From: Oligoflexia bacterium | Lineage (GTDB): Bacteria > Bdellovibrionota_G > JANQFH01 | Reading direction: 5' to 3' | DNA length: 64,000 nt | NCBI GenBank assembly: GCA_028277945.1 | Contig: JANQFH010000056.1 | Coordinates: 186,001-250,000, forward strand | Part shown: in pieces, positions 5,148 to 40,120 of the stretch | Numbering within the stretch: the stretch's first letter is position 1 | Layout: each line of letters starts with the position of its first letter | Translations under genes and position numbers: made by a program | Notes under the pieces: generated by a model | The model's input: only the letters and a program-made list of their open reading frames with translations | Told to the model about the DNA's origin: nothing | The model's database searches: none

Positions 5148-6041
5148 TTGCAGCTTCGAGCCCACACCATTCTCTTCATTGCCTGTTTTTTTTGGGCCAT
5201 CTCCTTCATCGCCACTAAAGTAGCCATCAAATCGGTGCAACCGCTCACTATTGTGTTTGTACGCACGCTGTTTGCCTCGCTCTGTTTCCTACTCTGGTTC
5301 ACTGCTATAGGAAGAATCAAGCATCTTATTTCACTCTGTTGCCGACGCGAATTCTTACCGTTCTTTCTCATCGTGACCCTACTCAACACGCTGCACTACG
5401 TCGTACAGACCGTTGGCCTGCAGTTTACTACAGCTGCAAATGCCTCCCTTTACGTCAACGGCGCGCCGATCGCGATACTGCTAATTGCCGCCATATTTTT
5501 AAAGGAACGCATCACCTTGCAAAAAGGCATCGGTGTTTTGATTGCGCTCATAGGCGTCGGTACGGTCATGGGCTGGCAAAACATATTCGCCTTAGAGTTA
5601 CGCCGTTATCTATTGGGAGATCTGCTGGTCCTCTCCAGCACTGTCATGTGGGGTGTGCTGACCGTTTACAGCAAGAAATTCACCGTCAGGCTGACGGCCA
5701 TGGAGATCTCTGCGGTCATGACGTTATTTGGAACGGTGATGATGTTGCCGTTCGCTTGGTGGGAGTTTGGCTCGATCACCAATTTCTACTTTAACCCCTT
5801 CCCACTCGAGGCGTGGCTAGCCATGGCTTTCTTGGGAGTTACCTGCTCCTTTCTGGCGGTAGCGCTCTACATCAAGGCTTTGGTGTGGGTTGAATCACAA
5901 AAGGTGGGTATCTACCTCTATACAATCCCACCCATGACCTATCTGTTCGCCGCTCTCTACCTGAGAGAGAGTATCGGTGTAAGCCTAATCCTTGGAACTG
6001 TGATGGTTACCGCCGGCGTCTGGCTCACCCAACGTAGTTAG
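5148..6041 (+). CDS. EamA/DMT-family permease
   Basis: A 297-residue integral membrane protein with about ten hydrophobic helices in two repeated halves. The start of the first half (ACFFWAISFIATKVAIKSVQP) and of the second (LLVLSSTVMWGVLTVYSKKF) show the EamA drug/metabolite transporter pattern, as does ...ALYLRESIGVSLILGTVMVTAGVWL near the end. The start is TTG 5148, three bases after the aldolase stop. No better start exists before the first helix, and translational coupling is likely. Family members export amino acids or other metabolites; linkage to threonine aldolase suggests an amino-acid-related substrate, but this is only inference. Confidence 0.85.
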   Translation: MQLRAHTILFIACFFWAISFIATKVAIKSVQPLTIVFVRTLFASLCFLLWFTAIGRIKHLISLCCRREFLPFFLIVTLLNTLHYVVQTVGLQFTTAANASLYVNGAPIAILLIAAIFLKERITLQKGIGVLIALIGVGTVMGWQNIFALELRRYLLGDLLVLSSTVMWGVLTVYSKKFTVRLTAMEISAVMTLFGTVMMLPFAWWEFGSITNFYFNPFPLEAWLAMAFLGVTCSFLAVALYIKALVWVESQKVGIYLYTIPPMTYLFAALYLRESIGVSLILGTVMVTAGVWLTQRS

Positions 6042-6046
6042 ATAGG

Positions 6047-6114
6047 TCCCTAGAAGGTACGGCCTTACTTTCAGGGAATGCATTCCCTGAAAGTAAGGCC
6101 GTACCTTCTAGGGA
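6047..6114. repeat. Palindromic repeat copy A: perfect 68-bp palindrome
   Basis: The left arm 6047-6080 (starts TCCCTAGAAGGTACGGCC) and right arm 6081-6114 are exact reverse complements over 34 bp with no spacer, centred on ATGCAT. It lies between the convergent EamA gene and hpt. Two related copies are found at 35540-35569 and 36984-37042. It has no flanking T-run. It may act as a two-way transcription end or mRNA stabiliser, or be a miniature mobile element; function is inference. Confidence 0.9.
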
Positions 6115-12543: not shown

Positions 12544-13179
12544 TTAGCCCAGCTTTAAGCTCACACCAACACCATCACGCAAAGGAATTATAGCGGTTAT
12601 GAGATTGGCATTTTCCATAACAGTGCTTGTGTAATCGAGAATACCTTTTGTCCATGCATCAGGATCTACATCAATGACTCGGCCACTCCAAAGCAGGTTG
12701 TCGGTAATGAGCAGGCCTCCTACCCGCAACCTTGGCAACGCCAACTCCAACGCTTCAGGATACTGATCTTTATCAATGTCGATGAGAACAATATCAAAGG
12801 TCTCAGTGTAGCGCCGAACAATCGCGCGCGCGTCCCCAACCTCAAAGGTGAGCTGATCTGCCATACCGGCACGAGCAAAAGCATGCCTAGCCCGTTCAGC
12901 ATTTTTCTCACTGCCTTCGGTGCAGACGATCTTTCCCTCAGGGCCCATAGCCTGGCAAAACCAAAAGGCGGAATAGCCAAAACCAGAGCCCAGTTCAAAA
13001 ATCTTCGTCGCTTTGATCGCCCTAGCCAACAACGCCAGTAGATTCCCTACCTGCGGGCCAATGATAGGAAAACCGTTCTCAGCTGCATAAGCTTCCATCT
13101 CCTTAAGAATGGAATGACGCTCCGGCAGCCGACGCTGTAGGTACTCGTTGATCTCTGGATTCAATATGGAAACAGCCAC
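12544..13179 (-). CDS. SAM-dependent O-methyltransferase, family 3 (catechol type)
   Basis: A 211-residue cytoplasmic methyltransferase. The SAM-binding motif I is KIFELGSGFGYSAFWF, acidic motif II is VCTEGSEKNAERAR, and metal/substrate motifs are FDIVLIDIDKDQYPEAL and LLITDNLLWSGRV, typical of class I cation-dependent O-methyltransferases (COMT/CCoAOMT-like). Length is standard. It lies downstream of mutM and ygfZ on the same strand with a 12-base gap and could be co-transcribed. The physiological substrate cannot be told. Confidence 0.9.
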   Translation of the reverse strand: MAVSILNPEINEYLQRRLPERHSILKEMEAYAAENGFPIIGPQVGNLLALLARAIKATKIFELGSGFGYSAFWFCQAMGPEGKIVCTEGSEKNAERARHAFARAGMADQLTFEVGDARAIVRRYTETFDIVLIDIDKDQYPEALELALPRLRVGGLLITDNLLWSGRVIDVDPDAWTKGILDYTSTVMENANLITAIIPLRDGVGVSLKLG

Positions 13180-13191
13180 AGTATCTCTCCT

Positions 13192-13866
13192 CTACTTATT
13201 GCTAACAAAAAGAAAGCCACGTTGATCGCCACTTTTCGAATCCTTGATCACTGAGGTCATGGCGCCGCGCTGGGATGCATCCACGTCGCTGGCAGTAACC
13301 ACTACCAACTTGCGTGGTGGTTTGGACTTGTAATGCACTCTAGCAATGACCTCCTGGCCAATAAAACAACCCTTGTCATAAGAGACGTAGTCGGTCTCAT
13401 GGACGTTTAGCAACATCTCATCATGATAGTCGATGCCATGTAGTGGGAAACCGTGATCGAGACGAAACTCCCTAAACTCCTCCTCACTCACCTGGCTCTG
13501 CAGTGTCTTGCTAGTAATCAGCAGCTGCCCGGCTTTTTGTGACAGCACCCATTCGCTGGCACTTGCCTGATAACTGTCATCAAGATCCCAATAGATCTCA
13601 GCGTCGCTCTTCTCCATGGTCGTATCAGAGAGCATGAGCAGCTTCTCTAGATGTTGTCTGAGCGCTGGCAGGCAGTCTGCGGCCACAACCATCAACACGG
13701 TATCGTCGTTGCATTGCCGCTGATCACAGGTGGCAATGATCTTTCCCTTGGTATTTAAAAAAGCGTTCTTTGGACGACTGATGCTATTGCTCGTTACACC
13801 CTGTAAGAACTCCTCGGGTCGGTTTTTGAAAAACAGAGCCGTGCTGTTCATCTTGTAGAGCCGCAT
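13192..13866 (-). CDS. ygfZ: YgfZ/GcvT-like folate-binding protein
   Basis: A tetrahydrofolate-binding protein involved in iron-sulfur cluster protein maturation. The family signature with the conserved cysteine, KGCFIGQEVIARVHYK, is clear near the C-terminus, and FLQGVTSNSI near the N-terminus matches the family start. The protein is shorter than E. coli YgfZ (326 residues), as in many bacteria, and ends with a reduced C-terminal domain (RGFLFVSNK). I prefer ATG 13866 (224 residues). The frame is open to TTG 13905, which directly abuts the mutM stop, so the longer form is possible. Neither start has a clear ribosome binding site. Confidence 0.85.
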   Translation of the reverse strand: MRLYKMNSTALFFKNRPEEFLQGVTSNSISRPKNAFLNTKGKIIATCDQRQCNDDTVLMVVAADCLPALRQHLEKLLMLSDTTMEKSDAEIYWDLDDSYQASASEWVLSQKAGQLLITSKTLQSQVSEEEFREFRLDHGFPLHGIDYHDEMLLNVHETDYVSYDKGCFIGQEVIARVHYKSKPPRKLVVVTASDVDASQRGAMTSVIKDSKSGDQRGFLFVSNK

Positions 13867-22612: not shown

Positions 22613-23842
22613 TTAGTTCAGCTCAAGCAAAAACTTTCCCGGTGTCTCAATGTGCTCTTTAATCGTGCGCAAAAAGGTGACGGCCTCTCTACCATCAATC
22701 AATCGATGGTCGTAGGAAAAGGCCAAGTACATCATCGGTCGAATCACCAGCTGATCGTCTATAACCACCGATCGTTTCTGGATTGTGTGCATACCGAGAA
22801 TGCCGGTCTGTGGTGGGTTTATAATCGGCGTCGAAAGCAGCGAACCAAAAACACCGCCGTTGCTGATGGTAAAAGTCCCACCCTGCAGCTCTTGCAACGC
22901 CAACCTATTCTCACGCGCACGCTGAGCAAGGTCGTGGATACCAAGCTCCATTTCAGCCAAGCTAAGCTGCTCGGCATTTCTAAGCACGGGAACCACCAGA
23001 CCTTTATCTGTGGAGACGGCAATGCCAATGTCATAGTAGTGGTGGTAGACAATCTCTTCGCCATCAATCTGGGCGTTAACCTCTGGAACAGCCTTGAGTG
23101 CCGCGACACAAGCCTTAACAAAGAAGCTCATAAAGCCCAACTTAACGCCATGTTGCTGCTGAAACTGCTCTTGCGAGTTGCGCCGCAACTCAAGCACCGC
23201 ACTCATGTCGGCTTCGTTAAACGTCGTTAGTGTGGCGCGCTCATGTTGAGAGGCAACCAAACGCTGGGCAATACGCTGTCGTAGGGTGCTCATACGCTCC
23301 CGGGTTACCCTGCCGGCAGGCTGCGACTTTGCCATGGTTGCACCGCTAGGTGCATCCTTGCTACCCGCAAGAAAGCGCAGGACATCCTCTTTGAGCAGCC
23401 TACCGCCTTTACCCGTTGCTGGTATCTCCTCGGGTTTAAGTTGCAGCTCGTTGAGCAGACGACGCACCGAGGGCGAGAGTACCTTCTCTGAGCCTGTGGC
23501 AGACGACCGTGTCGCATCTGGCCTCTTTGCTGCGACCGGCTCCGTAGCGACTTCGTTTGCTGTCGGTTTAGGGGCTGGCGTGGTCGATGGCTCAGTTGAC
23601 GGCGTGGCTTTACTGGGCTGGAGAACGCCAATCTGCGCACCAATCGCAACCGTGGTGCCGGCTGCGACTTCGATCTTTAAAGTGCCGCTGCTCTCTGCAG
23701 GCACTTCGGTAGTGATCTTATCCGTCTCTAGCTCGTAAATTGGCTCACCACTCTTCACCTGCTCCCCGTCCTGTTTGATCCAAGCAGAGATCACTCCCTC
23801 AGTAATAGACTCACCTATTTCAGGTACAATAATTTTGCTCAT
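22613..23842 (-). CDS. sucB: 2-oxoglutarate dehydrogenase E2, dihydrolipoyl succinyltransferase
   Basis: A 409-residue E2 component that transfers the succinyl group to CoA. The lipoyl domain is at residues 1-76, with the lipoylated lysine in [15 protein letters not shown] Pro/Ala/Thr linker leads to the E3-binding domain ([33 protein letters not shown]), then the acyltransferase core ending in the catalytic [30 protein letters not shown] at the start is typical of SucB. Its ATG overlaps the sucA stop (ATGA), so the two are translationally coupled. No E3 (lpd) gene is in the window. Confidence 0.96.
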
Positions 23843-26661
23843 TCTCCCAACTCTTCTAAATCGCTTGCAAAACAGCGCCGAATCAACTCTTCCTGTTCTG
23901 CTTTGTGTATCGCAAAAGAACCTGTGGCTGGCCTTGCTGCCGCAGACCTACCTATATAATGGATGGGCACCTCGGTAAGCTTCGCCAATCGCGGTGCGAC
24001 AAAAGACCACCCGCCCATATTCTTGGGTTCCTCCTGTACCCAGACGATAGCGTCAACATGACGATAATGGCCGAGAATAGCAGCTAGCGGTTGCTGAGGC
24101 CATGGATAAAACTGCTCCATGCGAATGATGGCGATATCCTGGCGTCGACTCTGCAACTGAACTTCCAAGAGATCGTAGTAGATCTTGCCACTACAGATCA
24201 GCAACCGTCTGACCTGCTCAACATCGGCATCGCTGTCTGCGATAACTTCCGTAAAACTGCCTTCGCTTAGCTCGGCAACCGGTGAAACCGCCAGGTGATG
24301 GCGGAGAAGGCTCTTGGGTGTCATGATGATAAGGGGTTTACGAAAATTGCGCTTCATCTGGCGGCGCAGCACATGAAAGTACTGGGCTGGTGTGGTCAAG
24401 TTACAGATCTGGATATTATCCTCAGCGCATAACTGCAGAAAACGCTCCAAACGTGCGCTTGAATGCTCCGGACCCATGCCTTCATAGCCGTGTGGCAACA
24501 ACAAGACAATGCCGGAGCTGCGGTGCCACTTGGCCTCGGCACTAACAATGAACTGATCGATAATCAGCTGCGCACCATTAGCAAAATCTCCAAACTGCGC
24601 CTCCCACATCACCAACATCTCTGGCTCTACTAAAGAGTAGCCATAATCAAAACCGAGCACACCCGCTTCACTTAGGGGGCTATTGTACACACAAAACTTT
24701 GCCTGCTGTTGGTGGATGTCGTTTAGAGGAATATAGGTGCTGCCATCGACGGCGTCATAGAGCACCGAGTGTCGTTGACTAAAAGTGCCGCGACGGCTGT
24801 CTTGACCACTAAGCCGCACAGGCGTGCCTTCGACTAAGAGCGAACCAACGGCAAGCGCCTCAGCCATGGCCCAATCTACGGTACCGCGGCTTGAGCTTGA
24901 AGAAGTTTGCGAAGCTGCCAGGTAAGTTTGCTTCTTCTGCTCCAGCTGTCTGGCGATCTTTGGATTGAGTCGAAAATCTGCAGGCCAACGAAAAAGCGCG
25001 TCGACAATTTCATCCAGCACTTTAAGCGATACCGTCGTTGGCACCAACTCGGTAGAGTAAGCCTGCTGCATGCCCTGCCAATAGCCGCTGAGTTTTTGCA
25101 CTTCGGCCTTGATGTAACCGGCACTACGAACGGCTTGCAGGGCTTCTTCGAGCTGTCGCTCAAAATCCTCCTGGATGGCAACAGCACTTTCACCCCCTTC
25201 ACTACCGCTCTCGGCATTCAAAACTCTTTCGCCAACCAGCTGCTTGACATAGAGCTGTCGAACACTGTTTAACTCTCTGATCTTGGCGTACATCTTTGGT
25301 TGGGTATAGGCGGGTTCGTCGGCTTCGTTGTGGCCATACTTACGGTAACCGACAATGTTTAGAAAGGTGTCGATACCAAACTGTTGGCGAAACTCCATGC
25401 AAAGTTCGACACAGAAGACGACCGCCTCTGGATCGTTGGCATTGACGTGAAAGACCGGCGCGCCAAACATCTTGGCAATATCGGTTGGGTAGAGAGTTGA
25501 ACGGCCATCGTGTGGATCGGTGGTAAAGCCGATCTGGTTGTCGACAATGATGTGTAGAGTACCGCCGGTGCCGTAGCCCTCAAGCTGCGACAGCTGCAAG
25601 GTTTCCATAACCAAGCCCTGGCCGGCAATAGCGGCATCGCCATGGATCAGCACTGGAATCACCGCCTGGCGGTCGACATTCCAGCGACGCTGTTTGCCAC
25701 GGGCACGGCCCACCGTCACCGGATCCACCGCCTCTAGGTGGCTTGGGTTGGAGGAGAGGCTGATATGGAGTTTTTTGCCATTGGCGTTGATGTAATCGGC
25801 TGAGTAACCCAGATGGTACTTCACATCACCCGCACCATCCGCTGCTTTTGGATCAAAGTTGTCTTCAAATTCATCAAAGATCTCCTCAAGGCTCTTCTCC
25901 ACAACATTGGCAAGCACGTTCAGCCTTCCCCGATGCGGCATGCCGATGACCATTTCAACAATGCCGAGCTCAGGCGCCAATTCGCGTACGGCATCCAATG
26001 CGGGAATGAGCACCTCGACTCCCTCGAGGGAGAAACGCTTCTGGCCGAGAAACTTCTTATGCACAAAGGCTTCAAAAAACTCCGCACGCAGTAGCTGTCT
26101 CAGCAGACGCATCTTGCGCTCTGCAGGAAAGGCTGGCCGTCCGCGAGCGGTCTCTAAGCGTTGCTGGAGCCAATGCCGCTGCGTCGGATCCTGTATGTGC
26201 ATGTACTCACTGCCAATCGTGCGGCAGTAGGTATCGCGCAGGATTTGATGGATCTCGCGCAGGCTTGCCTGGGGTGGGCCGTAGAGCGAACCAAGGCCGT
26301 ACTCTACATCAAGATCCGCTTCACTGAAGCCGAAGTTGCTGAGCTCGAGTTCCGCGTGGCTTTTGTTGCCGGGATCTAAAGGGTTGGTATCGGCAATGAG
26401 GTGGCCAATGTCGCGGTAGGCATAAATGAGTCGGTCTATCTGCCACTGGCCTTTGGCCGTCTGTGGGGTTGCCGCTGCCGACTCCTTGTCATCAGCACCG
26501 GCCTTTTGACGCCGCAGCGGAATACCACGCCTGCCAAGCTCAAAGCCCTCGAAAAAAAAGCGCCAGCCTGCCTCAAGAGACTTTGGATCATTACACCACT
26601 GCTCATACGCACGTTCGATATACTCAATATTGGCAAGGTTTGCGTAGTCCGCCTTTTGCAT
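23839..26661 (-). CDS. sucA: 2-oxoglutarate dehydrogenase E1 component
   Basis: A 940-residue thiamine diphosphate enzyme that decarboxylates 2-oxoglutarate in the TCA cycle. The frame is open about 180 codons further upstream, but that part is antisense to otsA. ATG 26661 gives [22 protein letters not shown], matching the E1 N-terminus, and a length like E. coli SucA (933). Landmarks are [32 protein letters not shown], the ThDP motif beginning [20 protein letters not shown] and ending [17 protein letters not shown] and [21 protein letters not shown]. It is followed by sucB with a 4-base overlap and divergent from otsA. Confidence 0.96.
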
Positions 26662-26745
26662 CTCTTCATCACACCCAAAGATGTCTAAAGCCCGGCAAGA
26701 CGTTATCACTTTGACAAAGGTTTTCAAATGAGGATAAAGGTAAAA

Positions 26746-28170
26746 ATGGTGCGTGCAAAGAAAAGGCGTCTGATCGTCGTCTCTAACCGCCTGCCGGTAA
26801 AAATCGAAAAGAGCCGCGGCAAGTGGAAGATCTACCCCTCTCCCGGAGGCCTGATTACGGCGCTCTCGCCTATACTTAGAGATCGGGGCGGTGTCTGGCT
26901 CGGTTGGGCGGGTTGCGGCAAAGAGGCGCCGGTGGGCAGGCTCTTGAGACAGCTCAACCGCCATGAGTCCTACCAGCTGCGAGGGATTAGCCTCAGCGAA
27001 GAAGAGATCGCCCAATACTACCGGGGCTTTTCCAATGAGGCGTTGTGGCCGCTGTTTCACGATCTGCTCGGACACTGTCGTTTCAAGCGGGCCCATTGGC
27101 AAACCTATCAAAAGATCAACCATCTCTTTGCCAGACAGGTCAAGCGCCTCTACCACCGTGGCGACGTCATCTGGGTACACGATTACCAGCTGCTCATGGT
27201 TGCCCACTACTTGCGACAGCTTGGATTACGCCGCACAAAGATCAGCTTTTTTCTGCATATCCCCTTTCCATCGTACGATCTCTTTCGCCGCCTGCCTTGG
27301 AACGGTGAACTCATATACGCGATGATGGAGTATGATCTGCTTGGTTTTCAGACCAAACGTGACCGCCGCAACTTCCTTCGCTGCGTTAAGGAGTTCATGC
27401 CAGAAGTGGCCATCCTTGCGCACAAGAGCCGTTTTACCGATGTGCAGTATGGCAGCCGTCGGGTACGCATTGGCTACTATCCAATCAGCATCGATTACAA
27501 AGACTTTAACGACCGCGCCCACGATCCCGAGGTTACCAAGGTGAGCTATGACATCCACCGCAAACTCTCGAATCGCCGGCTTATGCTCGGGCTCGATCGG
27601 TTAGACTATACCAAAGGCATTCCACAACGATTTCGAGCCTTTGAGCGAGCACTAGAAAAGTATCCGAAATTGCACGGCAACCTCTCGATGATTCAGGTGC
27701 TCATTCCAAGCCGGACCCGCTTGCCAGATTACATTGACCTTAAGAGCCAGTTGGATGAGCTGGCTGGTCGCATTAATGGCAGGTTTTCTAAACATGAGTG
27801 GCTACCTATCTTTTATATGTTTCACAGCTTAAAACCTGCAGAGCTTCTTGGACACTACCGCGCCTGTGAGATCGCCTTGATTACACCACTACGTGACGGC
27901 ATGAATCTGGTCGCCAAAGAGTACTGTGCCAGCTCCATCGACAACAACGGTGTGTTGATTTTGAGCGAGTTTGCTGGTGCCGCGGATCAACTCAGCAAGG
28001 GCGCCCTGATTGTTAACCCTTACGATGTAGAGGGAACGGCCGACGCCATCTACGAAGCCTTCAAGATGCCCATCGCCGAAACCAGCAGGCGCATGCGCGT
28101 TATGCGCACTGAAATCAAACGCAACGACGTCCACCAGTGGGCCGCCCAGTATCTCAGCACCTTCCTCTAG
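26746..28170 (+). CDS. otsA: Trehalose-6-phosphate synthase
   Basis: A GT20 glycosyltransferase that joins UDP-glucose and glucose-6-phosphate to trehalose-6-phosphate, used in osmotic and stress protection. Key parts: [11 protein letters not shown] (glucose-6-P loop), [67 protein letters not shown], and [16 protein letters not shown] followed by [15 protein letters not shown] prefer ATG 26746, which has AAAGG five bases upstream, over ATG 26728, which lacks a ribosome binding site. No trehalose phosphatase gene (otsB) is adjacent, so it must lie elsewhere. It shares an 84-bp divergent gap with sucA. Confidence 0.95.
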
Positions 28171-35545: not shown

Positions 35546-35569
35546 AAGGTAAGGCTTTACTTTTAGGGA
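35540..35569. repeat. Palindromic repeat copy C (single arm)
   Basis: The 30-base segment starts CCCTAGAAGGTAAGGCTT and ends TTTTAGGGA. It matches the outer 30 bases of one arm of copy A with three base changes. It lies between convergent genes. Its CCCTAG end supplies the stop of the plus-strand fusion gene, and the opposite-strand CCCTAA end would stop the frame-corrected MFS gene at 35563. Confidence 0.8.
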
Positions 35570-36970
35570 CTACTCTCTTCCGATACTGACGACGCTCGGG
35601 AAGTAAAAAAGAATGTCAGCATGATAATCGTCGTTAATAGCACCGCTGCTGCTGGGTACAGCCAGGTGGTGAGGCTGCTTGCCCACGCCAAAGAAAACCA
35701 AGACGACAATGATGAGCTGTTTCATCATAGAACCAAGAGAGAGGATGGTCGATCGCTCCTGCGTCTTTGGTGGAATTACCGCGTGCTGAAGACTCCATGA
35801 GGGGGCTTGTTTAGCGCCTTCAACCAAGAAATAGAAACTCAACAAGGCTGTAAACAGAGGTAGGCTCAATAGAGTGCTGTCGCTTGCTAGAAAAAGGCAG
35901 ACAAGCAAAAAGATCGGCAGTGAAAATATGACTGAGACAACAGTGTTGATAACCACTAAAGCCTTTACTGAGGCTGCTCCGTGGGTTTGCTCATAACGCC
36001 GGTTCCACCATGAAAAGAGTTTAGAGCCGAGGAAACCGGCCACACTGATGCCGAGAAGCAGGATGATCCATTCGTTTGAAAATCCTCTTCCCACCTCTGA
36101 TACAAAGTGATACCGCGTAAACACCGGCCACACGTAGTTGACAAGATAAATGAGTGAAGTACCAGCAGCCGCAGCAGCAAACACCACCCAGAGTACTGGT
36201 GAGCGGATAAGGATTCGGCTGCCGACAAGCCAAACCCTTATTATCTCTTTCCATACCTGCCTGCGCGCCTTGCCAAAGAGTTTAGATGGGCTAACAAACT
36301 GATAGCCACGATTCTCCTCCATCAAAGAGTGGCAGAAGATCGCCGTTAGCAAACAGAGCAGCGCCGCAAGGCCATAGGCAACATAGACAACATCACTCAA
36401 CCAGAGGTAGATCCCTAAAACCGAGCCCAACAGAAGCGTACCCCGATACCAAACAAAGCCTCGCGCCAAAATTTCAGTTAGCCTGGATCCACAGTCGATC
36501 TCGTCCAGCGTATCCTTAAGCCAAGAGGTGAAGGATCCTGTGAAAAAGGTGTAGTGAAAGGCATAGAAAATGTTTGCGGTAACGGCCCAAAAGATGACAC
36601 CTTGAGCATGCTTGTATTTGCCAAACCACCACGTCAACAGGAGCGCTAAACAAAACAGGATGCGAAAAAAGAGATTAGTGATGGTAGCAAACTTTCTTCC
36701 AAGACTGTCGGCAAAGACCCCGGTTGGCACCTCGAGCAGCGCTTGAAAAAAGATGCCCGTAGAAAAAGCAAACGCCGCCCATGCAAGCGGCATTAGGGAG
36801 ACAAACCAAAAAGAGACCGGCGCATCAATACCACCGTTCGCATAGACAATACTTTCAAAAATCACAGCGCCGTAGTTATATGCGTAAAGCCCGGTGATCA
36901 GACCAATAGCGGCAAAGTAGCCAAGATAAACGGCAACTGTGCGAGAGAGCTTGTCGTCAAGAAAGTTCAT
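35570..36970 (-). CDS. MFS transporter, probably frameshifted near its 3' end
   Basis: A 466-residue membrane protein with about eleven clear hydrophobic helices and the MFS loop motif EVPTGVFADSLGRKFA after helix 2. After VVLVFFGV the reading becomes hydrophilic and helix-free (GKQPHHLAVPSSSG). The frame one base further on encodes AWASSLTTWLYPAAA and VLLTTIIMLTFFFTSR, an obvious last membrane helix with a polar tail, and ends at TAA 35563-35565 in repeat copy C. A single extra T in the minus-strand run TTTTCTTT (about 35690-35700) would explain this. It lies downstream of the RiPP genes and is the candidate exporter or immunity pump. An unrelated efflux role is possible. Confidence 0.8.
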   Translation of the reverse strand: MNFLDDKLSRTVAVYLGYFAAIGLITGLYAYNYGAVIFESIVYANGGIDAPVSFWFVSLMPLAWAAFAFSTGIFFQALLEVPTGVFADSLGRKFATITNLFFRILFCLALLLTWWFGKYKHAQGVIFWAVTANIFYAFHYTFFTGSFTSWLKDTLDEIDCGSRLTEILARGFVWYRGTLLLGSVLGIYLWLSDVVYVAYGLAALLCLLTAIFCHSLMEENRGYQFVSPSKLFGKARRQVWKEIIRVWLVGSRILIRSPVLWVVFAAAAAGTSLIYLVNYVWPVFTRYHFVSEVGRGFSNEWIILLLGISVAGFLGSKLFSWWNRRYEQTHGAASVKALVVINTVVSVIFSLPIFLLVCLFLASDSTLLSLPLFTALLSFYFLVEGAKQAPSWSLQHAVIPPKTQERSTILSLGSMMKQLIIVVLVFFGVGKQPHHLAVPSSSGAINDDYHADILFYFPSVVSIGRE

Positions 36971-36983
36971 AGTATAGATAAGA

Positions 36984-37042
36984 TACGGCCTTACTTTCAG
37001 GGAATGGACACTCCCTAAAAGTAAGGCCGTACCTTCTAGGGA
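36984..37042. repeat. Palindromic repeat copy B
   Basis: The left arm 36984-37003 (TACGGCCTTACTTTCAGGGA) pairs with 37012-37031 with one mismatch around an 8-base loop. The right side continues to the family end CCTTCTAGGGA at 37042, while the left arm lacks its outer part. The minus-strand CCCTAG at the right end provides the stop codon of the PqqD-like gene. It sits between that gene and the MFS start, so it may separate the exporter's transcription from the operon upstream. Confidence 0.85.
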
Positions 37043-37314
37043 GCGTTTGCCAAAATCAGGCCTTCTGCTGCGAACTGTCGCATGAGCTCTTGGAGATCGC
37101 GGCGGCAGGCCTCGGGCTCTACGTCGTACTCATCACACAACTTGGCAACAATCGTCTCCTCATCGGCACCCTCTGTGAGCAGATCCCAGATCTGCATGCC
37201 GGTTTCATTGAGGGTAAAATAGTATTTACTCCTCAGATTGAGGATGACTCCCTCGTTACCTAGATTGGTATAGACTACGTCTCTACTATTGATACGCGCG
37301 CATACGTTTGACAT
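37036..37314 (-). CDS. PqqD-like RiPP recognition element
   Basis: A 92-residue small protein of the PqqD/lasso B1 fold that holds the leader of a precursor peptide and presents it to modifying enzymes. Visible features: a beta-hairpin pattern VVYTNLGNEGVILNLRSKYYFTLNETGMQIWDLL and the helical end EETIVAKLCDEYDVEPEACRRDLQELMRQFAAEGLIL, both typical. It overlaps the 3' end of the radical SAM gene by 29 bases, implying coupled expression. Its stop codon lies inside repeat copy B. It should bind the YxxPxL leader of the precursor encoded at 38365-38541; this is inference from the lasso family. Confidence 0.88.
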   Translation of the reverse strand: MSNVCARINSRDVVYTNLGNEGVILNLRSKYYFTLNETGMQIWDLLTEGADEETIVAKLCDEYDVEPEACRRDLQELMRQFAAEGLILANAP

Positions 37315-38350
37315 GATCTGCCACCTCCCTATTTACCTCGCTGTCTCCCTTGACCCAAGGGTGATTGGGAAAATTCTTCATGTAGTTGAGTTTCTTAAAG
37401 TGCTTCATACAGAACCAGCAGTGGTAGTTATCCATACCCTGCAGGCCGCCAGCATGCATCTTGTGCAGACGCGCTTTGTGGACATCGTTGTAAACATCGA
37501 GCAGGCGCGCATGCCCTTCAGCCAGGGTCACTTTGTTGAGATCAGCCACCACGTCTCGAGCCTCATCACCCATGCCGCCAGTATTAGAGAGTTGGCAGCA
37601 GACGGTCAACCGGCCGACATAGTCAATGTTCAGGGCGCCATTGCGCAAAAACTTACAGTGGGAGAGCGGAATCATGTCATAGTGCCCTGCGGATTGGTAA
37701 ATCGGCAGCCGAAACGTCTGTCCGAGTTGCAGCACTTCTTCGTCAACCTTGAGCCAGTCTTCTGGAGGCAGCACGATGTCGTCGCGCAACCCGTGCGGAG
37801 TTGGTTGCATGTGTGCAATAAAGAGCTGATTCACCCGCATACGCGTACAGAGCTCTGCCATCTGGCGCATCTCATGCCGGTTGAGTCGGTTGACAACCAT
37901 CTGGATGGTAACAGGGACACCTTTTGCTCGGCATAGAGCAATGGCGTTCAACGCCTTTTTGAAAACACCCGCACCACGAACAGCGTCGTGTGTCTCTTCT
38001 GTAGCACCATCAAGGCTGATGCTCACACCCTTCCAGTAGCCACCGCCGGCATACGGGCCAATACGCTGCATCACCTTGGGAAAGGTGGTGCCATTGGTAA
38101 CAAAGTGAAAGCCGTAGCCCATCTCCACAAGAAGATCGATGATCTCGCCAAATTGAGGATGTAAGGTGACCTCACCACCGGTCATGGCTATGTGTGGTTT
38201 GTTGTAAGCCGTGGCCTGTTCCAGAATAGATTGGATGAACTCAATGGGCAGATTTGCCGTGAGGTCGAGGTCGTCGCGCATGCAATGCGCACAGCGCAGA
38301 TTACAGTGACGGGTTAACTCAAAGCCAATGAAGAAGTCATAGCTCTGCAT
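37286..38350 (-). CDS. Radical SAM peptide-modifying enzyme with extra cysteines
   Basis: A 354-residue radical SAM protein. The 4Fe-4S motif is C16-NLR-C20-AH-C23, followed by the GGE motif at 58-60 (MTGGEVTLHP) and SISLDGATEETHDAVRG. The C-terminal part has C232, C251, C252, C311 and C314 (HCKFLRNG, TVCCQLSN, CWFC), a SPASM-like arrangement that may carry an auxiliary cluster. Such enzymes install thioether, C-C or epimerised residues in RiPPs. It begins 14 bases after the stop of the precursor gene and overlaps the PqqD-like gene by 29 bases. It is the only candidate core-modifying enzyme here; the reaction cannot be told from sequence. Confidence 0.88.
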   Translation of the reverse strand: MQSYDFFIGFELTRHCNLRCAHCMRDDLDLTANLPIEFIQSILEQATAYNKPHIAMTGGEVTLHPQFGEIIDLLVEMGYGFHFVTNGTTFPKVMQRIGPYAGGGYWKGVSISLDGATEETHDAVRGAGVFKKALNAIALCRAKGVPVTIQMVVNRLNRHEMRQMAELCTRMRVNQLFIAHMQPTPHGLRDDIVLPPEDWLKVDEEVLQLGQTFRLPIYQSAGHYDMIPLSHCKFLRNGALNIDYVGRLTVCCQLSNTGGMGDEARDVVADLNKVTLAEGHARLLDVYNDVHKARLHKMHAGGLQGMDNYHCWFCMKHFKKLNYMKNFPNHPWVKGDSEVNREVADHVKRMRAYQ

Positions 38351-38364
38351 AATCTACAAGAGCC

Positions 38365-38541
38365 TTAGAAGACCGTTGCTGCCGGCGCCACCGGTGAGGA
38401 CTGTGCGGCTGCGGGTGGTGGTCCCGTAGGCCCGACCATGCCACTAAATCCTTGCACACTTTTGACCACATCGTTGTGCTTTTTAAGTTGCGGTTTCTGA
38501 TAAGGTTTACGTGGGAATCGAGGTTTGCGTTTGCCGCTCAT
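38365..38541 (-). CDS. Candidate RiPP precursor peptide, 58 residues
   Basis: A short frame starting at ATG 38541 and ending with TAA 38365-38367, between the B2 gene and the radical SAM gene and not overlapping either. The leader is very basic (MSGKRKPRFPRK) and carries PYQKPQLKKHNDV, which fits the YxxPxL motif bound by lasso-type B1/PqqD proteins. The tail from about residue 31 is GFSGMVGPTGPPPAAAQ then SSPVAPAATVF: rich in Pro and Ala, with no Cys, Trp or Lys. Thr39 in GPTG is a possible leader-cleavage landmark, since B2 enzymes like Thr at -2, but the cut site is not certain. Ser48, Ser49 and Thr56 are possible phosphorylation sites. No acidic residue follows the first tail residues, so a lasso isopeptide ring is unlikely. 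Confidence 0.72.
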   Translation of the reverse strand: MSGKRKPRFPRKPYQKPQLKKHNDVVKSVQGFSGMVGPTGPPPAAAQSSPVAPAATVF

Positions 38542-38598
38542 GCAAGCACTCTATTGAAGAATGACTGGTGAGGCAAGCAAATCTACACGACATGAGTG

Positions 38599-39117
38599 TC
38601 AAGCCAGACGATAGGAGTAAAGCGACTGGTAAGTGCGGCATGGGTCGGTATCAAAGGCCTCGCCGCCGTCGAGGTTGAGCCAGGCGTGAAAGCGTCTCCC
38701 CGACCGACCTTGCTTAGAAACACCGATATAAAAGGTGACGTCGCCAGCGACCTCGCGCTGCAAATAGCGGAAGCCGATTACACTCATCACCAGACAGCGC
38801 TGCTTGCGTGCCCCGGGTACAAGAGGGACCACTAGAGGCAACAGCCGCTCAATTTGTCGCCATGCGCCTCGAGGCAGGGCCAAGGACTTCCCAACAAGAG
38901 AGCGGCGGATGGAATCGGTTCTCACGCGCAGTTGCCAATTATGCCAAAAGAGATGGAGGTAGAGCAGGAGCACAAGGTAGACATCAACGTAGGTTGAACA
39001 CCCTTTTTTCAAGCGCGTACAGCAGTAATAGAGTCGTTGGCAGATGCTGATCACTATTTTTCTATCGTAGCACAACTGTCTAGAGGTTTCATACGACGAC
39101 CTCGGATGCTGGCTCAT
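38599..39117 (-). CDS. Lasso-type B2 transglutaminase-like leader peptidase
   Basis: A 172-residue cysteine peptidase of the lasso peptide B2 family. A hydrophobic helical N-terminal half (VYLVLLLYLHLF...) is followed by the catalytic domain with C108 (RKQRCLVMSVIGFRYL), H144 (RRFHAWLNLDGG) and a downstream Asp (D156 or D158 in AFDTD). These match the family's C...HAWV...D triad. B2 proteins cut the leader from lasso precursors with help of a PqqD-like B1. ATG 39117 lies inside the end of the kinase-like gene (29-base overlap), so expression is coupled. The precursor gene follows 57 bases downstream. Confidence 0.85.
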   Translation of the reverse strand: MSQHPRSSYETSRQLCYDRKIVISICQRLYYCCTRLKKGCSTYVDVYLVLLLYLHLFWHNWQLRVRTDSIRRSLVGKSLALPRGAWRQIERLLPLVVPLVPGARKQRCLVMSVIGFRYLQREVAGDVTFYIGVSKQGRSGRRFHAWLNLDGGEAFDTDPCRTYQSLYSYRLA

Positions 39118-40120
39118 GACAGTGCTCTTCTAGCAGCTGCACTAGCTTCTCGGGATGATGCAGCAGATCCTCACCACGTTCCAGGCGAAATGGCTCACAC
39201 TGCTGAGCCAGTTTAGAGAGGGCCTCGAGATGATGGGCAGCAAGCTGTGGATGGAGAAAGAGAAAGGCATTTTGGTGGATCATCTCTGCCAGCAAAGCAC
39301 TGCGACGCACAGGCAGGAGACGGCTCTGTCCGGTTTTTTTCGGCTGTAAAATAACCACTTGCAGGGGTGTCGCTTGCGCTAGGCGACAGTTTGGCGGTAG
39401 AACAGTCGGGCTGACATGCCCTTTACCATCGCTGTCAACTCGCTCCAAAATGAGCCCAGGAAACCAATGCACCATCGTCCCATGCAAAAGGAACCGATGC
39501 AGCAGACGGTGCGCTGTGATCTGGTTGTCTTCATTTGTTGCTAGGAGAAGCGCATCGTCAGCCACCAACGACCAGCCCGCACGTACCAGCATGTAAAGGC
39601 TAGTGGACTTTCCACTACCTCCGTCCCCTAGAAAGATGACCCCCATACCGTTAGGGCTGACGGCAAGGCCAGCATGGAGGTAGTACATCTGCTGCGTACG
39701 CAAGAGCTCAATCACCGCAACCATGAAATAGCTATGGGTTAAAAGCCGTACCTGCTGATGGATGGCAGGTGAAAAGTAGGCACGAGCCCAGTGCTTTTGG
39801 TAGTGCAGATCCAATTCATGCTCACCATCTTCAAGGTGGAGCGCATCACCAAAGACCCAACCCCGGATCATCCGCTCGCGCCGTAGTTGGAGCTTGGTAG
39901 TCTCCAGGGGTAGTGGTGGCTGGTCAAAAATGGAGCCACGCTCCTTTTTGGCAGCTGCCGACAACATCTCTACGGTGAAATCAAAGTCTCCTGTTTTGCC
40001 ACCACGATCGAGCAGACCTTCGAGAGGTCCTCTCAGCAGGTAACGACGGATCCGTGGATCGTCCGTCACTAGGCGGATGCGGCAACCACCAACCTGAAAG
40101 CTATCAACTCTCTCCCCCAT
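39089..40120 (-). CDS. HPr-kinase-like ATPase of the RiPP locus
   Basis: A 343-residue protein with the HprK catalytic core: Walker A loop GDGGSGKST at 165-173 and WSLVADDALLL (D188, D189), the equivalent of the HprK LVADD base motif. The N-terminal 150 residues are not the HprK DRTGG domain but a beta-rich region seen in HprK-like proteins of RiPP and exopolysaccharide clusters. In some lasso peptide loci (paeninodin type) such kinases phosphorylate the C-terminal residue of the precursor. Here it is the first gene of the operon and overlaps the B2 gene, so precursor phosphorylation is a reasonable but untested idea. Canonical HPr regulation is unlikely because no HPr gene is near. Confidence 0.85.
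   Translation of the reverse strand: MGERVDSFQVGGCRIRLVTDDPRIRRYLLRGPLEGLLDRGGKTGDFDFTVEMLSAAAKKERGSIFDQPPLPLETTKLQLRRERMIRGWVFGDALHLEDGEHELDLHYQKHWARAYFSPAIHQQVRLLTHSYFMVAVIELLRTQQMYYLHAGLAVSPNGMGVIFLGDGGSGKSTSLYMLVRAGWSLVADDALLLATNEDNQITAHRLLHRFLLHGTMVHWFPGLILERVDSDGKGHVSPTVLPPNCRLAQATPLQVVILQPKKTGQSRLLPVRRSALLAEMIHQNAFLFLHPQLAAHHLEALSKLAQQCEPFRLERGEDLLHHPEKLVQLLEEHCHEPASEVVV

Follow-up and report, generated by a model that had tools for sequence, protein, structure and literature searches.

In Bradymonas sediminis, the bsf lasso cluster consists of the genes A, B1, B2, C, D, K and N; residue Ser3 of the precursor is phosphorylated by the kinase K, a reaction that B1 speeds together with the removal of the leader (PMC10368454). 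In lasso leaders, the motif YxxPxL spans positions −17 to −12 and threonine is usual at −2, although isoleucine or valine is also seen there in phosphorylated lasso peptides (PMC10368454). The RRE-Finder study deals with recognition elements (RREs) of ribosomally synthesized and post-translationally modified peptides (RiPPs); of its almost 8,000 discrete lasso-type RREs, only about 4,000 are found together with the peptidase and cyclase, and about 300 of the remainder neighbour a radical S-adenosylmethionine (SAM) enzyme and are termed false positives of the lasso model (PMC7470986). Here we describe a minus-strand operon in a 64,000-nucleotide stretch of DNA from an Oligoflexia bacterium (contig JANQFH010000056.1, positions 186,001–250,000; hereafter the window, in whose coordinates all features are given). 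The operon probably encodes a RiPP pathway that combines lasso-type leader handling with a radical SAM enzyme in place of the lasso cyclase. The system is real, conserved and unusual, and it is a strong candidate for a RiPP class not yet described, whose chemistry we infer to be new.

A lasso-type leader and a core without acidic residues

The operon runs from 40120 to 35570 and holds genes for an HPr-kinase-like kinase (K), a B2-like peptidase, a precursor, a radical SAM enzyme, a PqqD-type protein and a protein of the major facilitator superfamily (MFS). There is a 29-nt overlap between K and B2, and another between the radical SAM and PqqD genes. A preliminary description of the window had proposed this minus-strand run with overlaps or short gaps; all six genes are in place and the named families are matched by profiles, with every NCBIfam match of the window proteins scoring under its curated cut-off.

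The 58-amino-acid precursor (38365–38541, minus strand) is identified by homologous precursors in relatives and by the register of its leader, which ends in P-YQKPQLKKHNDVVKSVQ and carries the lasso YxxPxL motif (Y14, P17 and L19 of the precursor) exactly at −17 to −12, with valine, one of the residues accepted in lasso leaders, at −2. The predicted core, GFSGMVGPTGPPPAAAQSSPVAPAATVF, is 28 amino acids long, starts with glycine and contains no Asp or Glu; the calculated masses before any modification are 6154.299 Da for the precursor and 2568.268 Da for the core. For lack of these acids a lasso ring is impossible for the window core, in line with the earlier suggestion that a tail without acidic residues makes such a ring unlikely.

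The precursor is conserved directly 5′ of the radical SAM gene in genomes G002 (56% identity) and G004 (44%), with a shared C terminus, SP[VI]APxxTVF. In other phyla, a small precursor open reading frame (ORF) adjoins the kinase or B2. All 14 tabulated precursors have [YF]xxPx[LV] at −17 to −12 and T or V at −2, and two later precursors at new loci (L120 and L125) show the same leader motif and register. The preliminary description had tied its proposal to conserved precursor-like ORFs in homologous loci, and ORFs with a shared leader indeed occur across phyla. The predicted cores range from 8 to 28 amino acids; the three from the window's phylum start with Gly, and the Nitrospirota cores are very short (8–14 amino acids, mostly FFGxFxP or PFSPIPN), for instance AFFGSFRP at L103 (calculated mass 927.460 Da) and DFFGTFSPRNR at L104 (1342.642 Da). 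The 14 tabulated cores all lack Asp and Glu at positions 7–9, and 11 of them have no acidic residue anywhere. Conservation was also considered as a guide to the modified residue and set aside: Phe is near-universal, but in L030 it occurs only at −1, and no single target is supported.

Fifteen loci have a matching precursor at the cassette, and further precursors lie elsewhere in the genomes. In the first sample, YxxPxL precursors accompany 13 of 15 cassettes with PqqD against 0 of 7 without it (p = 2e-4), although some genomes without a cassette-local precursor were later found to carry precursors elsewhere. The motif has a background of about 0.5% (58 matches among 8819 small ORFs, about 16 of them the precursors themselves). 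As loci accumulated, several of the profiles and motif definitions were adjusted to them, and the statistics serve as description only. Independent checks are cleanest for the L120 and L125 precursors and a lipoprotein in the window's own genome (see below), because they were found after the profiles were fixed.

A rare radical SAM family with invariant extra cysteines

The 354-amino-acid radical SAM maturase (37286–38350, minus strand) is assigned by its match to PF04055 (8e-27), invariant cysteines, clade and structural model. The CxxxCxxC motif lies at positions 16, 20 and 23, and further cysteines follow at C232, C251, C252, C311 and C314; all eight are invariant in an alignment of 26 sequences. 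This bears out the claim, made from the window alone, of a radical SAM enzyme with extra cysteines. In the auxiliary pattern, C232-x13-G-x4-C251, C252 and C311-x2-C314, the elements C232-x13-G-x4-C251 and C311-x2-C314 resemble a twitch-type auxiliary-cluster site, for which the region is a candidate. The seven-cysteine SPASM pattern is absent from the protein, and it has no match to the SPASM Pfam model.

An AlphaFold model of the enzyme (mean confidence, pLDDT, 86) has BlsE, SkfB, viperin, SuiB, PqqE and anSME as its nearest solved folds by Foldseek, a similarity that covers the peptide-modifying SkfB and SuiB, yet also radical SAM enzymes that act on non-peptide substrates. Profile matches to families of PqqD-dependent radical SAM RiPPs, such as the pyrroloquinoline quinone (PQQ), mycofactocin and sactipeptide types, are mostly limited to the radical SAM core. 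Full-length homologues, at 29–53% identity, come by title from Bdellovibrionales, Deltaproteobacteria RBG_13_61_14, Troglogloeales, Schekmanbacteria, Nitrospiraceae/Nitrospira and Sericytochromatia, as well as from metagenome-assembled genomes. The family is rare: it is present in 9 of the 396 Nitrospirota genomes sampled, in 14 of 385 genomes from a broad sample and in 3 of the 5 genomes from the window's phylum. The 23 cassette proteins form a single group (support 99/98) when placed in a tree among 37 other radical SAM proteins, from which true Scm proteins were absent. No relative was found on the viral contigs scanned with the enzyme, and tblastn of plasmids with a Nitrospirota homologue gave no match at 1e-30.

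Leader binder, B2-like peptidase and kinase

The PqqD/B1-type leader-binding protein (RRE; 92 amino acids; 37036–37314, minus strand) matches PqqD PF05402 clearly (1e-20) and has lasso_PqqD_Bac as its best match (9.5e-17; 60.9 bits against a cut-off of 80). The B2-like leader peptidase (172 amino acids; 38599–39117, minus strand) is divergent, and family profiles and catalytic residues support its assignment. It matches lasso_biosyn_B2 at 1e-06 (29.1 bits against an NCBIfam cut-off of 33) and Transglut_core3 at 1.2e-06 (28.9 bits against a gathering score of 26), and Cys108 and His144 are kept in 13 of 13 homologues, among which those at L104, L029 and L030 exceed the lasso_biosyn_B2 cut-off. 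A PF13471 scan of the window's own genome gave no match, though the window protein itself matches PF13471; the scan misses weak members, and its silence is not used as evidence.

The HPr-kinase-like peptide kinase K (343 amino acids; 39089–40120, minus strand) was assigned by family profiles and a motif alignment. It matches Hpr_kinase_C (8e-07), TIGR00679 (4e-08) and HprK_rel_A (2e-07), all under curated cut-offs, and an alignment with 25 homologues shows conserved His149, a GDGGSGKS P-loop (Gly170, Lys171) and Asp188-Asp189. The HPr-like kinase of the preliminary description is present and is not exotic: it corresponds to the known accessory kinase of lasso peptides, BsfK (PMC10368454), which often occurs with a nucleotidyltransferase.

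The gene set in relatives

Profiles of K, B2, PqqD and the radical SAM enzyme locate partners beside most homologues, in several phyla that are only distantly related. The fullest cassette, in Nitrospirota (L103–L106), has the order B2, precursor, K, radical SAM, PqqD and NTP_transf_5, and L041 and L102 contain the same parts in different orders. NTP_transf_5 is recognized by Pfam in L026, L027, L036 (as a B2 fusion) and L041; in L102–L106 its presence is suggested by sequence resemblance and position.

No Asn_synthase-family gene was found on the cassette contigs of the six comparable genomes (G000, G002, G004, G024, G043 and G045) or within the stretches read around the other loci. The claim that an asparagine-synthetase-like cyclase is absent, with a radical SAM enzyme in its place, therefore holds for these loci, and no cyclase turned up just outside the operon in relatives. 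The system falls outside the lasso class on two defining features, a linked cyclase and a ring-forming acid.

Other arrangements were seen as well. At L048, L049, L051 and L055 (Desulfobulbaceae, Electrothrix and Verrucomicrobia) the order is PqqD, radical SAM, a small Cys-containing ORF and an HprK-like gene; the small ORF carries YEKPxL...LFADQV or a close variant, then Cys. This arrangement scores under all NCBIfam cut-offs tested and looks like another undescribed precursor family. L126 contains two small ORFs (13094–13549) whose leaders read YVKPMV/YAAPRV and whose tails are Gly-Cys repeats (GGGGCGCGCG); two radical SAM genes, a PqqD gene and an HprK-like gene lie nearby. At L134 (1230–6806), the second locus of the Nitrospirota genome G305, PqqD, HprK-like, NTP_transf_5-like, B2, ABC transporter and precursor genes occur with no radical SAM gene, some 4 kb downstream of an AsnB-like gene; this set is possibly a lasso-type cluster.

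Precursors beside exported lipoproteins

A profile of 16 precursors was run over 11 genomes. It gave weak single matches in G045, G589 and G024 (E 0.004–0.005), genomes without a cassette-local precursor, and one in G101 (1.4e-5). The distant precursors have leaders of the same type, for example FVEPKLKVYEPLIDITL|FTSTANVGGGTFF, and lie directly beside exported lipoproteins of 905–1071 amino acids. At L030 the order is PqqD, lipoprotein, precursor, K and radical SAM. Immediately behind the lipobox, the lipoproteins have a stretch in common (GTFxAxVDxxTGxITF-like), and they share a domain of weak similarity. Comparing the N-domain profiles in pairs gave weak matches (P 5e-4 to 0.16), and a shared N-domain is supported by a search with a seven-sequence profile rather than by that comparison: the search found independent members, a 1093-amino-acid protein in the window's own genome, on the same contig at a distance of about 131 kb (E 3.8e-18), and one in G004 (1.4e-13). 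No member turned up in G001 or G003, the two genomes of the phylum that lack the cassette, or in six Nitrospirota genomes. In G045 the search found further lipoproteins, two with a precursor directly upstream.

In the Schekmanbacteria-type genome G045 (L135, L155 and L152/L159), four precursors are spread over three sites, and each group immediately precedes a lipoprotein of about 1050 amino acids; its single enzyme cassette lies away from them, and all the precursors end in [TS]FF. A conserved pair of exported lipoproteins (about 1100 and 550 amino acids) adjoins the cassette at L026 and L043, and in G000 and G004 it occurs at other sites (L153 and L154), with the position 5632–10507 in L153 (G000:C61, about 54.6–59.5 kb) and Big_5 repeats in two. 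The large member was not found in the two phylum members without the cassette.

The link between precursors and lipoproteins is a lead and not a result, because it was pursued after the first examples had been seen, without a broad control. It suggests a more specific idea, possible but on balance doubtful: a new RiPP class defined by its lasso-leader, radical SAM and kinase chemistry, in which one cassette matures several distant precursors, each beside a lipoprotein sharing the N-domain, and the modified peptide acts at the cell surface (as cofactor, as ligand or by covalent attachment) instead of as a free antibiotic.

Downstream hairpin and neighbouring features

The last gene of the operon (35570–36970, minus strand) encodes a 466-amino-acid MFS-type membrane protein, a possible exporter whose membership of the system is uncertain; it matches MFS_1 at 2e-06, under the gathering score. 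The 65 nt between it and the PqqD gene are occupied by a perfect hairpin (36983–37034; −43.7 kcal/mol, z −10.9), which fold energy and a genome scan mark as a copy of a dispersed palindromic repeat. The repeat, CCCTAGAAGGTACGGCCTTACTTTYAGGGA with its complement, is a near-perfect palindrome with 37 half-sites genome-wide, against 0 for the reversed control. Copies in the window (6057–6104, 35549–35569 and 36983–37032, the last being the one above) are strong hairpins, all intergenic. The hairpin adjoins the system and is no conserved part of it. The MFS gene, considered as a defining part, was rejected as unconserved and lying behind the hairpin; for the same reasons, peptide export by its product is a guess.

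The host genome of the window comprises 2.86 Mb in 92 contigs. Elsewhere in the window, the longest forms of the ORFs 23839–27207 (minus strand) and 26728–28170 (plus strand) overlap by 480 nt (26728–27207), and the true start of the oxoglutarate-dehydrogenase-like ORF probably lies further in.

Proposed pathway and alternative explanations

The gene set and its conservation, the leader register, the binder, the protease and kinase motifs, and the lack of a linked cyclase or ring acids are established from sequence; the reactions, their order, export and function are modelled on lasso and radical SAM RiPP biochemistry. The PqqD/B1 protein would bind the YxxPxL part of the leader and present the core to the radical SAM enzyme and the kinase. 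The radical SAM enzyme, with its putative 4–5-Cys auxiliary-cluster domain, would introduce a change by C–H activation in the hydrophobic core containing Pro, Ala, Gly and Phe, and the HprK-like kinase would phosphorylate core Ser/Thr. B2 would then cut after −1, in the window between Q30 and G31, and free the core, which in the window's genome the neighbouring MFS protein may export.

The reading of the radical SAM enzyme as a substitute for the cyclase is favoured by the leader register, the single radical SAM clade, the association of precursors with PqqD, the lack of an Asn_synthase gene at the loci examined, the kept catalytic residues of K and B2, and the fuller Nitrospirota cassettes, which equal bsf A/B1/B2/K/N with a radical SAM gene in place of C. 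Several points weigh against it. The window B2 scores under its curated cut-off, and its AlphaFold model was poor (pLDDT 62, no Foldseek match) and was discarded; in the two nearest relatives, L026 and L027, no B2 lies within the stretch read, and an S26/S24-type peptidase occurs instead, downstream of PqqD, which, as speculation, might stand in for B2. The −2 residue is Val in the window and L026, against T in the other tabulated precursors. No MFS gene was identified beside the homologous cassettes inspected. Kinase–radical SAM pairs without PqqD or B2 occur at L028, L031, L033, L035 and L124.

Those pairs form a subclade, mostly beside a sugar nucleotidyltransferase, and together with the frequent position of precursors beside exported lipoproteins they would fit a kinase–radical SAM pair acting on an envelope or glycan target, the peptide being regulatory or incidental. 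We regard this as improbable: precursor leaders hold the RRE motif in register across several phyla, PqqD is a dedicated leader binder, and at least one genome of the kinase–radical SAM-only type, G024 (L137), has a matching precursor elsewhere, adjoining a lipoprotein. An ordinary phosphorylated lasso peptide, with its cyclase encoded elsewhere and the radical SAM enzyme merely decorating it, would account for a set of leader, B1, B2, K and NTP_transf_5 that is that of lasso clusters (PMC10368454), and Asn_synthase-family genes do occur elsewhere in the window's genome. Yet the three full-length candidates there have no B1, kinase or radical SAM partner within about 1.5 kb; one has beside it just a weak match to the B2 profile (E 0.0016), and two sit in a surface-sugar-like cluster. 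With no ring-forming acid at positions 7–9 of the tabulated cores and no cyclase linked to the cassettes examined, a lasso peptide with a distant cyclase was rejected as very improbable. Least probable, by a little, is membership in a named, uncharacterised cassette such as SynChlorMet or HPr-rel-A: ScmF is the best NCBIfam match of the radical SAM enzyme, and the kinase matches HprK_rel_A and ScmC, but all scores lie far under curated cut-offs.

Comparison with known systems

SynChlorMet (ScmC/D/E/F) resembles the operon in its ScmC model, related to HprK-like kinases, its PqqD homologue ScmD and its radical SAM/SPASM proteins, and is set apart here by scores: the window proteins reach 89.8 of 400 for ScmF, 20.7 of 125 for ScmC and 14.9 of 100 for ScmD, which places them outside it. 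They also lie outside HPr-rel-A (TIGR04352/TIGR04353), with 30.3 of 200 for HprK_rel_A and 23.5 of 35 for PqqD_rel_X. PQQ, mycofactocin, SkfB- and AlbA-type sactipeptides, SuiB streptide and YydG have a radical SAM enzyme that works on a ribosomal precursor, as predicted for the operon, several with an RRE, and the fold predicted here is similar to SkfB, SuiB and PqqE; among PqqD-dependent radical SAM RiPPs, however, none was found that combines B2, an HPr-like kinase and a lasso leader.

In the open-access literature, we found no described class that combines lasso leader handling, a radical SAM enzyme and a kinase, so the earlier statement that no described RiPP family has this gene set stands in that literature; its novelty is reduced in one respect, as the RRE-Finder study had already recorded lasso-type RREs next to radical SAM enzymes without treating them as a class (PMC7470986). 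The cassette is plausibly among those roughly 300 RREs, whereas the part of that study available links them to no precursor, B2 or kinase and describes no class (PMC7470986). The system offers a testable explanation for some lasso-type leader binders discarded as false positives in earlier genome mining, and the short Nitrospirota cores should make the chemistry easy to assay. If true, the lipoprotein link would suggest that a RiPP has an unusual role at the cell surface.

With the bsf type, the operon shares the leader motif and register, a discrete B1/PqqD-type protein, a B2-like peptidase and an HPr-kinase-like K, with N present in many relatives of the window; it differs in having no linked C, a radical SAM enzyme instead, and cores without a ring-forming acid. 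This suggests that the lasso front end, comprising leader tag, B1, B2, kinase and nucleotidyltransferase, forms a portable module, able to work with another core-forming enzyme. By analogy with both groups, the pathway appears lasso-like up to leader handling and similar to radical SAM RiPP pathways at the core step.

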